From: Megasphaera hominis
GTDB taxonomy: Bacteria > Bacillota > Negativicutes > Veillonellales > Megasphaeraceae
Reading direction: 5' to 3'
Assembly (NCBI RefSeq): GCF_014269395.1
Contig: NZ_JACOGK010000017.1
Location: 1 to 60,855 of the forward strand
DNA length: 60,855 bases
The stretch's first letter is position 1. Each line of letters opens with the position of its first letter. The notes below the pieces were generated by a model, which was not told the DNA's origin, did not search any database, and saw only the letters and a list, made by a program, of their open reading frames with translations. Below, piece by piece: positions 16,856 through 54,508 of the stretch. The position numbers were made by a program, and so were the translations under genes.

Positions 16856-18190
16856 ATGGTAAAAAAAGGTATGCAGATCGGTTTATTGATTTTCGGTATG
16901 ACCTTTGGTGCCGGAAATCTTATTTTTCCACCGTCGTTGGGGTTTCAGGCCGGACCGGCCTTTGTGCCGGCTATTATCGGCTTTATTATATCCGGCGTCG
17001 GTATGCCTGTCGTGTCACTCATCATGGGGACGTTTAACCCTGGTGGCTTCCGGGCGGAAATGAACCGAAAAATATCGCCTTTATTCTCGTTAGTTATTTT
17101 AACCTTAATTTATTTGGCCATTGGACCTTTGATGGCCATTCCCCGTACGGCGGCTACGTCTTTTTCCGTAGGCATTTTGCCTATTGCTGGCGATGGTACA
17201 TGGCAGCTGGCCGTATACACTCTTTTGTATTTTGCACTGGCTTGGTGGCTTTCGATTACGCCGTCCAAACTCCTTTCCCGTATTGGCAAGGTTTTGACAC
17301 CTATTTTTGCTATTATGATCGTGATTCTTTTTGTCGTAGGACTCATGGTCTATACGTCTCCGGAATTGGCTATGCCTGCAGGCAAGTATGCTTCAGCTGC
17401 CTTTGGCAGCGGCTTTATTGAAGGCTATAATACGGTGGATACCATCGCAGCCTTTGCCTTCTGCATCATTGCCCTGCAGACGATGCAGCAAATGGGATTT
17501 GCCTCGAAACGGGAATATTATATCAGCGTTTGGGCAGCCGGTGCCTCCGTGGCAGTCCTCATGGGCGGCCTCTATCTGGGCTTAGGCCTTTTGGGGAACC
17601 ATTTTCCTATTCCGCCTGAAGTGTATCAGAATCCCTCTATCAATCTGGGGGCCTATGTCCTGACTCAGGCTTCGTATACACTTCTCGGTTCTGTAGGGGT
17701 ATGGTTCCTGGCGGTCATGGTAGCCTTGGCATGCTTTACCACCTCTGTCGGCCTGATTGCAGCCGTTTCGGAATTTTTTGCTGCAGAATTTCCCCGTATT
17801 TCCTATAAAGGCTATGTAACGATCATTACGGTTTTCAGCTTTGCCGTTGCCAATATGGGATTGAATCAGATCATTACGGTGTCCCTGCCCTTATTGCTGT
17901 TTGTGTACCCCATCGCTATTACGGTTGTCATGCTGATTATTGTCAACAAATTTGTCCGTCTCTCCCGTCCGGGCATGCGCCTTTGTGTAGCTGTTGCCGG
18001 TATCTGTGCCGTCATCGATATTCTGCATCAATTTGCCGGTGTGGCCCTTGCCGGTACGATTATGGAAGGACTGCCTTTGGGTACCAGCGGCTTAGGCTGG
18101 ATGGTACCGGTTTGCATCTGTCTGCTCCTTTCCTTGGTGTTGCCACAGAAGATAACCGGCCAGGTTGACGTCGTAGAAGAGACAAAGTAA
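16856..18190 (+). CDS. brnQ: Branched-chain amino acid transporter (LIVCS family)
   Basis: A 444-residue inner-membrane protein with about twelve transmembrane segments. The N-terminal FGAGNLIFPPSLG around 14-26 is diagnostic of BrnQ, which imports Leu, Ile and Val with Na+ or H+. ATG at 16856 chosen with GGAAGGAG upstream (spacing about 11); a GTG at 16814 lacks a ribosome site. It is alone between a perfect promoter and a perfect terminator. Branched-chain amino acids could feed branched fatty acid formation, but that is inference. Confidence 0.9.
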   Translation: MVKKGMQIGLLIFGMTFGAGNLIFPPSLGFQAGPAFVPAIIGFIISGVGMPVVSLIMGTFNPGGFRAEMNRKISPLFSLVILTLIYLAIGPLMAIPRTAATSFSVGILPIAGDGTWQLAVYTLLYFALAWWLSITPSKLLSRIGKVLTPIFAIMIVILFVVGLMVYTSPELAMPAGKYASAAFGSGFIEGYNTVDTIAAFAFCIIALQTMQQMGFASKREYYISVWAAGASVAVLMGGLYLGLGLLGNHFPIPPEVYQNPSINLGAYVLTQASYTLLGSVGVWFLAVMVALACFTTSVGLIAAVSEFFAAEFPRISYKGYVTIITVFSFAVANMGLNQIITVSLPLLLFVYPIAITVVMLIIVNKFVRLSRPGMRLCVAVAGICAVIDILHQFAGVALAGTIMEGLPLGTSGLGWMVPVCICLLLSLVLPQKITGQVDVVEETK

Positions 18191-43487: not shown

Positions 43488-43722
43488 GCTAAAATGCCAG
43501 GAACAAGACGGCCTGCGTCGTCAGTCTTTTCAGCGAACCGGGGAAAGTGTGAGCCCGGGAAAGACCGTATGCAGGCGGATCACTTGGGAGCAGCAGCCGC
43601 GTACCGGCTGCCGGGTTGCACCGTTATGACGCAATAAAGTGGCTGCGAGGCAGTCAATAGGGTGGTACCACGGTGATTACGTCTTCGTCCCTTTGGGGGA
43701 TGGAAGGCGTTATTTTTTTACT
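43488..43722 (+). promoter_or_regulatory. Ile-type T-box leader of ileS
   Basis: Stem I carries CAGCGAACCGGGG and GTGTGAGCCCGG, and the specifier is ATC (43579-43581, in GGCGG-ATC-ACTT). The antiterminator motif GGGTGGTACCACGG (43669-43682) precedes a terminator hairpin (CGTC...GGCG, then TTATTTTTTT). Uncharged tRNA-Ile raises ileS expression. Confidence 0.93.
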
Positions 43723-46688: not shown

Positions 46689-46734
46689 TTGACACTATTG
46701 CAATGGAGTAGTATGCTACATACAAGTACTGTAT
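46689..46734 (+). promoter_or_regulatory. Promoter and operator of the sugar-acid cluster
   Basis: TTGACA (46689-46694), 17 bases, TATGCT (46712-46717). ATACA-AGTAC-TGTAT (46720-46734) is an inverted repeat at the start point, the style of site that GntR/FCD regulators use. Confidence 0.6.
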
Positions 46735-50845: not shown

Positions 50846-50873
50846 TTGACATTTTTTAAATATGTTATATAAT
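50846..50873 (+). promoter_or_regulatory. Promoter of the leader/small-peptide unit
   Basis: TTGACA (50846-50851), 16 bases, TATAAT (50868-50873); both hexamers perfect. Confidence 0.8.
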
Positions 50874-50898
50874 AAAAATATAAAGAAACCAGTGTGAT

Positions 50899-50918
50899 CA
50901 TTAAGTACGTACTTAATG
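50899..50918. promoter_or_regulatory. Perfect 20-bp palindrome, probable operator
   Basis: Each half is CATTAAGTAC, joined without a spacer. It lies about 20 bp after the expected transcription start, a repressor position. The adjacent FCD-type GntR regulator is the best candidate to bind it, since GT...AC half-sites suit that family. A second short palindrome, TAACATTGTTA, follows at 50919-50929. Confidence 0.7.
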
Positions 50919-50929
50919 TAACATTGTTA

Positions 50930-51096
50930 GTGTCCTAGTATTATACAAAAACGATTCCCTAGCATTGCGAGCGAGAAGTCAAAAGGAGACTCTGCCTTAC
51001 CGTACTCTGCGAGTAGCTCTGACAGTATTGGTTCTGCCCCCCGTTTTAACAAAACGAACGATGAACAACGCTGAGAACCAACTGGAGGGGAGGGCA
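50930..51096 (+). ncRNA. Structured leader with possible pseudoknot over the ribosome site
   Basis: Hairpins AGTC/GACT (about 50977-50991) and TACTC-tgc-GAGTA (51003-51015) come first. Then TTGGTTCT (51028-51035) pairs with AGAACCAA (51074-51081), and TGCCCCCC (51035-51042) in its loop can pair with GGGGAGGGCA (51087-51096), which contains the ribosome site of the 27-residue gene. This is an H-type pseudoknot geometry like translational riboswitches. No known class was recognised. Confidence 0.55.
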
Positions 51097-51101
51097 TCAT
51101 T

Positions 51102-51185
51102 ATGAATAGAATTAAAAACGCTATTCCGCTGTTAACAACTGTGGTTATCATTAGCCTTGCAGCTGCCGTCATTTATTTTGAATAA
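51102..51185 (+). CDS. 27-residue single-span membrane peptide
   Basis: ATG with GGAGGGGAGG eight bases upstream, 27 codons, TAA. The peptide has a basic N-terminus (MNRIKNAIP), one hydrophobic helix (about residues 9-25) and a final YFE. Its strong ribosome site, structured leader and own terminator argue that it is made. I do not recognise it. It could be a regulatory membrane peptide, a small subunit of a transporter, or a type I toxin-like peptide, whose mRNAs also hide the ribosome site. Confidence 0.6.
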   Translation: MNRIKNAIPLLTTVVIISLAAAVIYFE

Positions 51186-51219
51186 TTTGTTTGTAGAGAT
51201 GATACAGAAAGAGGCATAG

Positions 51220-51257
51220 AAACTGCCGCTGCGTTAGTGCAACGGCAGTTTTTATTT
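51220..51257 (+). terminator. Terminator after the 27-residue gene
   Basis: AACTGCCG and CGGCAGTT, then TTTATTTT. Confidence 0.82.
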
Positions 51258-51263
51258 TGTCCG

Positions 51264-51363: not shown

Positions 51364-52056
51364 ATGGCAGAAAACCGTATTTTAGCACAAGATATAGCCG
51401 ATCAAATTTTAGCCATGATTACGGAAGAAAAACGCTTCCATGCAGGCGACCGGCTGCCCAATGAAAACGATTTTTCCAGGGAACTCCATATTAGCCGCAA
51501 TACGTTGCGCGAAGCAATCCGTATTCTCAGTGCCTATGGCATTTTACATATCCGTCGGGGCAGCGGTACCTTTGTTACCGACGCTGTCAAAAAAAAGGAT
51601 TTGGAAAAACGGATCAATCCCTTTTCGGAGATGGAATTGGACGTACACGACTTTAATGAATTAAATGAAATGCGGCTCATTCTGGAACCGGCAGCTGCCT
51701 ATTTGGCGGCCAAACGGGGCAGCGAGCGGGAAATTAAGCGTATCGTAGAATTAGGTCACGAAGTTGAAAAAAAAATCCGTAACCGTGAAGACCGCACGGA
51801 AGCGGATAAAGCGTTTCATGCAGCCATTATCCAGGCTGCGCACAACCGCTATCTGGAAAAGATGATTCCTATTTTGTACCGCATCATAGCCCAGGATGTA
51901 TCCTATTACGATCAGTATGTACAAGCCGGCGAAAGCACCATAACGGATCATCTGTTAGTAGCAGAATTTTTGGAACGCCGCGATCCGATTGGAGCGCGTG
52001 ATGCCATGCGAATCCATATGCAGCATGGTATTACTAAAAATCATTTTGATATATAA
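51364..52056 (+). CDS. GntR-family regulator, FadR/FCD type
   Basis: A 230-residue regulator. The winged helix (about 5-75) has LHISRNTLREAIRILSAYGIL and the FCD domain follows (about 90-225), with possible metal residues in DKAFHAAII and HLLVAEFLERR. ATG has AAAAGGAGAGG upstream. Because it sits next to the palindrome at 50899 and the sugar-acid cluster, it may control either or both. It is a second FCD regulator within 5 kb, distinct in sequence from the first. Confidence 0.88.
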   Translation: MAENRILAQDIADQILAMITEEKRFHAGDRLPNENDFSRELHISRNTLREAIRILSAYGILHIRRGSGTFVTDAVKKKDLEKRINPFSEMELDVHDFNELNEMRLILEPAAAYLAAKRGSEREIKRIVELGHEVEKKIRNREDRTEADKAFHAAIIQAAHNRYLEKMIPILYRIIAQDVSYYDQYVQAGESTITDHLLVAEFLERRDPIGARDAMRIHMQHGITKNHFDI

Positions 52057-54239: not shown

Positions 54240-54508
54240 AGAGATACAGTCTATGAACGGGAGCAAGTACCTTTTTCAAAACCCTTTTCAGCGAGCCGGT
54301 GGTGGTGCAAGACCGGTAAGAGGCGGAAAAGCGAATGGGCCCGGGAGATGCCGTCTGAAGCGAGTAAGATAGGCCGGAGCTTTCACCGTTACCACGAAAG
54401 AGTGCATATGATGTGCATTGCAGAGCCGGGCATTTAGCCAACCAGGGTGGTACCGCGGAACCTACTTTCCTTTCGTCCCTTATGATAGGGGATGGAAGGC
54501 TTTTTTTA
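54240..54508 (+). promoter_or_regulatory. Trp-type T-box leader of trpS
   Basis: Stem I shows CAGCGAGCCGGTGGTGGTGC and the specifier TGG (54336-54338, in GCGAA-TGG-GCCC). The antiterminator motif CAGGGTGGTACCGCGG (about 54442-54458) precedes the terminator (CCTTTCGTCCC/GGGGATGGAAGG, then CTTTTTTT). Uncharged tRNA-Trp raises expression. Confidence 0.94.

Follow-up and report, generated by a model that had tools for sequence, protein, structure and literature searches.

A 27-residue membrane peptide gene of Megasphaera hominis whose long leader holds short conserved blocks and a possible docking loop

The window, i.e., the whole stretch of 60,855 nt of Megasphaera hominis DNA that was analysed, contains a small transcription unit located between a class II aldolase gene and a gene encoding a GntR-FCD regulator (gntR2, 51364-52056). 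This locus raises the question of whether its leader governs the translation of a tiny membrane peptide, and whether a run of six C residues in the leader does so by pairing with the ribosome site in a pseudoknot, as stated in the original prediction, or in another way.

The transcription unit and its peptide

A self-contained unit with a perfect promoter, a leader, a peptide frame and a terminator had been predicted, and these parts are present together with the C6 run (51037-51042), the helix arms and the ribosome site at the positions claimed. The features, with L001 denoting the locus of Veillonellaceae bacterium Marseille-P2974, are as follows.

50846..50873, + strand: sigma-70 type promoter TTGACA-16-TATAAT, 12/12 matches
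50899..50918, no strand: perfect 20-bp palindrome CATTAAGTACGTACTTAATG, the longest perfect palindrome of the window, just past the inferred transcription start
50928..50943, + strand: leader hairpin 1, stem UAGUG/UAUUA, loop UCCUAG, pairing kept in L001
50953..50959, + strand: GATTCCC block, identical in L001 (by reading)
50978..50990, + strand: putative GUC-AAAAGGA-GAC hairpin, L001 counterpart GUC-AGAACAGGA-GAC
51028..51081, + strand: helix TTGGTTCT (51028-51035) / AGAACCAA (51074-51081) enclosing the C6 block, read from sequence and kept in L001
51036..51047, + strand: GCCCCCCGTTTT block, 12/12 identical in L001
51071..51081, + strand: CTGAGAACCAA block, 11/11 identical in L001
51084..51094, + strand: ribosome-binding site GGAGGGGAGGG, read from sequence, 7 nt before the ATG
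51102..51185, + strand: 27-residue membrane peptide MNRIKNAIPLLTTVVIISLAAAVIYFE, 22/27 residues identical in L001
51220..51258, + strand: terminator hairpin and T tract, folded at -19.8 kcal/mol

L001 carries the unit at the same position. Its promoter (17279-17306) has the same hexamers with 16-nt spacing and likewise scores 12/12, and its frame is followed by a 14-bp terminator (17591-17622) that is unrelated in sequence to that of the window. The terminator hairpin of the window is absent from the output of a simple terminator scan despite its folding energy. Transcription probably starts near 50881; with this start the leader comprises approximately 220 nt instead of the approximately 170 nt originally assumed, and the whole transcript is predicted at approximately 380 nt.

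Between the frames of the window and L001, changes at codon positions 1, 2, and 3 amount to 6, 1, and 15, respectively, with a dN of 0.156 and a dS of 1.58. Since the changes are mostly located at third positions and dN is low compared to dS, the frame is regarded as coding and under purifying selection. Together with the homologue at the same place, the 22 identical residues, and the promoter and terminator of its own, this pattern argues for a real gene, so that the tiny membrane peptide of the original prediction holds, and its frame is conserved in the relative. As judged from sequence, the two-species comparison shows a coding frame, a consensus promoter in both species and separate short leader blocks that are kept. 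The mean hydropathy of the peptide is 2.37 over 19 residues. Due to this hydrophobic stretch and the positive residues close to the N-terminus, the peptide likely spans the membrane once as a helix, its N-terminus facing inwards.

No family match of the peptide was obtained in Pfam, NCBIfam or PADLOC, its best PHROG match was phrog_18592 (function unknown) with an E-value of 0.19, and a comparison by sequence with solved structures gave no lead. An upstream 46-codon frame (50965-51105) that ends on the start codon of the peptide was rejected, with a TAA situated two codons earlier in L001 (by eye).

Distribution and genomic setting

Among 35 loci, the sole clear DNA match to the unit was L001 17429-17585 (72.5% over 160 nt, E 2e-14). 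In the family, 1/17 genomes contains the unit, both by DNA and by peptide; this genome is referred to as G001. A second DNA match in G010 (E 0.013) was discarded because no similar peptide was seen by eye. At the level of the order, 2/61 genomes matched at E <=0.02, namely G001 and one other, of which the latter match falls within the longer frame of a different protein and was rejected. In the class, 16/380 genomes matched a loose pattern; the 15 besides G001 have unrelated spacers and were, like a second match in G001, rejected as homologues, as judged on the printed match only. The peptide profile reached an E-value of 1.1e-19 in G001 and at least 0.0016 elsewhere, with 209/380 genomes at E <=1, of which the other 208 were rejected as homologues (7 loci opened). 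An RNA model of the last 82 leader positions scored 94.9 bits in G001, the maximum in the other genomes being 30.1 bits, with 19/380 genomes at E <=0.05; the 18 weaker ones were rejected, and of these 11 were opened, none of which has a similar peptide following.

No homologue was found by tblastn in phage and plasmid collections, and six IMG/VR pattern matches were rejected by eye. The weak BLAST matches L037-L040, L042-L044, L046, L047, L050, and L058 were opened, none with a similar peptide, and a scan of the loci up to L055 for short hydrophobic frames likewise found no similar peptide. On the best reading, the unit is a lineage-restricted mRNA of a small membrane peptide. In agreement with the original prediction that no known RNA class fits, the covariance search with Rfam 15 yielded no gathering match at the unit, the best sub-threshold matches ranging from 11.5 to 19.5 bits, and a known RNA class was thus rejected. 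A widespread riboswitch class is unlikely as well, due to the fact that a recognisable homologue occurs in only 1/380 genomes of the class.

Upstream of the unit, a run of genes comprises gntR1, a 2-hydroxy-3-oxopropionate reductase-like gene, a gene encoding a SBD_N/NBD_C kinase and, as its last member, the class II aldolase gene. Several NCBIfam scores are under the curated cut-offs, and these names therefore stand for families, not functions. The IleS protein of the window is 85% identical to that of L001 and 71-81% identical to those of other Megasphaera and Anaeroglobus loci. In L001 the gene order is as in the window up to the aldolase gene, followed by the unit and then by a DUF1858 gene. 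GntR2 was not found in the 22.8-kb L001 locus, and the best match throughout G001 is 26% identical and located elsewhere. As L001 carries the unit without a downstream gntR2, attenuation of gntR2 transcription is ruled out as the purpose of the unit. Relatives of GntR2 occur in 9/17 family genomes, the closest being 57% identical; an initial genome scan with the GntR2 protein as query gave no lead.

The neighbouring kinase gene occurs in 2/17 family genomes, G001 and G012. The gntR1-reductase-kinase-aldolase operon of G012 (L131 6134-11520) terminates in a GntP-like permease, as read from the frame. No unit was found in G012, which means that operon and unit do not strictly go together.

The palindrome CATTAAGTACGTACTTAATG sits approximately 30 bases into the inferred transcript and possibly represents an operator. 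L001 has no perfect palindrome of at least 8 bp within 17250-17640, and no exact copy of CATTAAGTACGTACTTAATG occurs among 144 loci. As both the palindrome and the nearby gntR2 are missing at L001, GntR2 may control the unit in the window species. A role of the palindrome as GntR2 operator is not supported by the surroundings of the GntR2 relatives L133, L134, L142, L135, and L140, near which no similar palindrome was found.

Further regulatory elements were observed in the window. A T-box leader precedes ileS (43490-43695) with 82.3 bits, which is under the Rfam gathering score of 93 and was missed by the default scan, and another precedes trpS (54244-54483) with 106.4 bits. Just before gntR1, a 23-nt block (46706-46728) identical in L001 contains the inverted repeat GTATG-cta-CATAC and looks like a candidate operator of GntR1.

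The leader and its C-rich loop

Without the frame, the leader matches L001 at an E-value of 0.010 only, and the stretch between the GATTCCC block and the TTGG helix comprises 68 nt in the window vs 42 nt in L001 and is mostly unalignable. The shared 12-nt run GCCCCCCGTTTT has a length that was reached in 0/200 shuffles. Longer runs shared with L001 occur elsewhere in the locus, namely upstream of gntR1 (23 nt) and of ileS (22 nt). Since these two fall in an operator-like repeat and a T-box leader, respectively, long shared runs mark function here, yet they are not special to the unit. Within GCCCCCCGTTTT, the C run is predicted mostly unpaired and the GTTTT part paired in both species, the probability of being unpaired ranging from 0.68 to 0.98 across the C run, except for the last C in the window (0.16).

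Hairpin 1 reads CAGUA-UCCUAG-UACUG in L001 and has 5/5 standard pairs in both species; one pair is changed on both sides and two on one side, but for a comparison of just two sequences the shuffle control (263/500) is uninformative. In case of the TTGG/CCAA helix, which is kept in L001, 9/10 cells are paired and zero compensatory changes were observed. Taken by itself this helix does not exceed chance, as a perfect 8-bp inverted repeat with a loop of 3-60 nt begins at 175 positions in the window (2.9 per kb). For the GUC-AGAACAGGA-GAC region of L001, predicted folding prefers another structure. The folding energy of the stretch 50885-51185 corresponds to a z of -0.08, and 41/100 shuffles fold at least as well. 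Of the structured leader that had been predicted, the conserved 12-nt block thus goes beyond chance, whereas the folding energy does not, and of the conservation expected for its helices, the TTGG/CCAA helix is kept in the one relative but with no compensatory change. Claims on structure are weak, since only two sequences are known.

The predicted pairing of the C6 run with the ribosome site is strong in the window, but lost in L001. The duplex amounts to -17.6 kcal/mol in the window vs -4.6 kcal/mol in L001, and shuffled ribosome sites pair with C6 as well in 47/1000 vs 802/1000 cases. The L001 ribosome site is GGAGAGGAAG and contains no GGG, and the C6 block is identical to that of the window. 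The best partner of GCCCCCCG in the window transcript is the ribosome site (-15.3 kcal/mol), whereas in the L001 transcript it is part of the reading frame (-7.0 kcal/mol). No covariation between the C6 loop and the ribosome site was seen in this one relative. Due to the loss of the pairing with C6 unchanged, the conserved element is the C-rich block and not its pairing with the ribosome site. In nested folding, the ribosome site is masked in the model of the window and partly in that of L001, both at chance level (37/100 and 76/100 shuffled leaders, respectively, mask as much or more), and the start codon of L001 is predicted open (0.97 unpaired).

Possible modes of control and their meaning

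It is tempting, though tentative, to propose that the leader controls the translation of a real membrane peptide and that the C-rich loop is a docking point in trans, not one side of a cis pseudoknot. The single-gene unit would yield a single-pass membrane peptide of 27 residues, the amount of which would be set by the leader. The conserved GCCCCCC loop, followed by paired GUUUU, would be positioned next to the UUGG/CCAA helix, shortly ahead of the ribosome site, and might serve as docking point for a trans factor, be it an RNA, a protein or the ribosome, which upon docking would open or close the ribosome site. The loop of the window species can additionally pair with the G-rich ribosome site of its own transcript, which would have been added locally and would not belong to the conserved mechanism. 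As to the peptide, its most probable role is that of a small regulator or stress peptide residing in the inner membrane. The proposal is in agreement with the syntenic homologue that has a consensus promoter and its own terminator, with the selected frame, with identical blocks of 12 and 11 nt in a diverged leader, with the two-sided change in hairpin 1 and with a C run that is largely unpaired in both species and has no strong cis partner in L001. Against it stand the number of known sequences (two) and the poor match of the leader alone, the folding energy and the ribosome-site masking at chance, the predicted open start codon of L001, the finding of Hfq and CsrA in 0/6 family genomes, and searches for a trans partner by 11-mers, C-block complements and 2169 start regions, in none of which a partner was found.

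Other readings account for parts of these observations. In the window only, the locus is similar to translational pseudoknot riboswitches of the preQ1 and SAM-II type, in that pairing is possible between a loop and the ribosome site immediately 3' of the helix, which would hide that site; the strength of this duplex and the rank of the ribosome site as best transcript partner favour such a mechanism. The relative differs in having lost this pairing with an identical C6, the helix is joined to the ribosome site by a linker that, according to the known geometry, is short for bridging 8 bp, the distribution is narrow and limited to two species, Rfam gave no match, and the frame encodes a 27-residue peptide, so that we consider a pseudoknot unlikely. 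Somewhat less unlikely is a type I toxin mRNA, strongly transcribed and translationally silent, in which the structure of the leader together with an antisense RNA would prevent synthesis of a hydrophobic, membrane-damaging peptide. The hydrophobic peptide with its positive N-terminus, the long leader and the own promoter and terminator fit, and occlusion of the ribosome-binding site by an anti-SD sequence is a described hallmark of type I toxin loci (PMC6733600). In addition, an opposite-strand promoter-like site lies over the first part of the leader in each species (window 50898-50869, 9/12; L001 17355-17327, 10/12). These sites, however, differ in position between the species and would read back over the promoter, and no promoter-like site was found on the opposite strand over the ribosome site or the frame in the window or L001. 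Exact 11-mers shared with the surroundings (approximately 10 kb on each side in the window, approximately 10 and 5 kb in L001) were not above chance, with 1 in the window and 4 in L001 and at least as many in 183/200 and 60/200 shuffles, respectively. Moreover, G001 has a single copy of the unit, as does the window according to the R1 model, and the peptide belongs to no Pfam or PADLOC family, its PHROG match being poor. The aapA/IsoA system of Helicobacter pylori is similar in that an mRNA for a short peptide has a promoter and a terminator of its own, its leader presumably governing how ribosomes reach their site, whereas here no antisense RNA was found and no anti-SD pairing is common to both species.

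A dual-function RNA similar to RNAIII of Staphylococcus aureus would act on other mRNAs: in Negativicutes apparently without Hfq and CsrA, the invariant GCCCCCC loop together with UCCU and UUCCC would pair with their ribosome sites or be read by an RNA-binding factor, which we regard as improbable. In its favour, both species share the three CU-rich motifs and most of the C run is predicted unpaired. Accessible C-rich boxes have been suggested as a possible signature of regulatory RNAs in general, and the UCCC motif as a possible one of Hfq-independent sRNAs in Gram-positive bacteria (PMC3861533, PMC8383071). The families of Hfq and CsrA were found in 0/6 family genomes each (controls positive in 5/14 and 3/14 named genomes, respectively), which removes two usual trans factors and also a candidate CsrA site in the GGA-bearing loop at 50978-50990. 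RNAIII, which encodes the 26-residue delta-hemolysin, likewise unites unpaired C-rich motifs and a very short frame on one transcript, but it is 514 nt long compared to approximately 380 nt here, its fold is different, and the unit has no excess of targets. Of 2169 start regions scored within 2.4 of the 2.65 Mb of G001, 159 pair with the C loop at <=-15 kcal/mol vs a mean of 166.7 for 30 control seeds with shuffled flanks (19/30 with at least as many) and 40 vs 45.8 at <=-18 kcal/mol (22/30 with at least as many). Its best energy was reached by 29/30 controls; the scan tests an excess, and single true targets may exist. Four of the five best-pairing regions were identified as those of GTP cyclohydrolase I, a substrate-binding protein, an oligopeptide-type permease and MraZ, and these identities are no evidence of targeting. 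No perfect complement of the C-rich block exists in G001 apart from the unit itself, and one mismatch adds five sites, compared to five for the reversed control. All five fall within open frames on the same strand (130 to 992 codons), and L125 among them has an ATG 4 nt downstream. A plain small-protein gene, finally, whose long untranslated region holds a few promoter-proximal or ribosome standby signals, would explain why neither leader energy nor ribosome-site masking departs from chance. The identical 12- and 11-nt blocks, located far from the promoter in a leader that has otherwise diverged, speak against it, and it is the least probable reading. A docking loop that controls the peptide is the most likely reading, ahead of the toxin-like, pseudoknot, dual-function and plain-gene readings.

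A literature search short of a full review retrieved nothing on small proteins or riboswitches of Megasphaera, nor on small RNAs or transcription start sites of Negativicutes, and within the sources searched this peptide gene, with its long leader and the short blocks conserved therein, is not described. The locus adds a real 27-residue membrane peptide gene without Pfam, NCBIfam or PADLOC match. If the leader guards only its own peptide, one further guarded small-peptide gene would be added. If the C-rich block acts in trans, it would open up post-transcriptional control in bacteria seemingly devoid of Hfq and CsrA (0/6 family genomes each).
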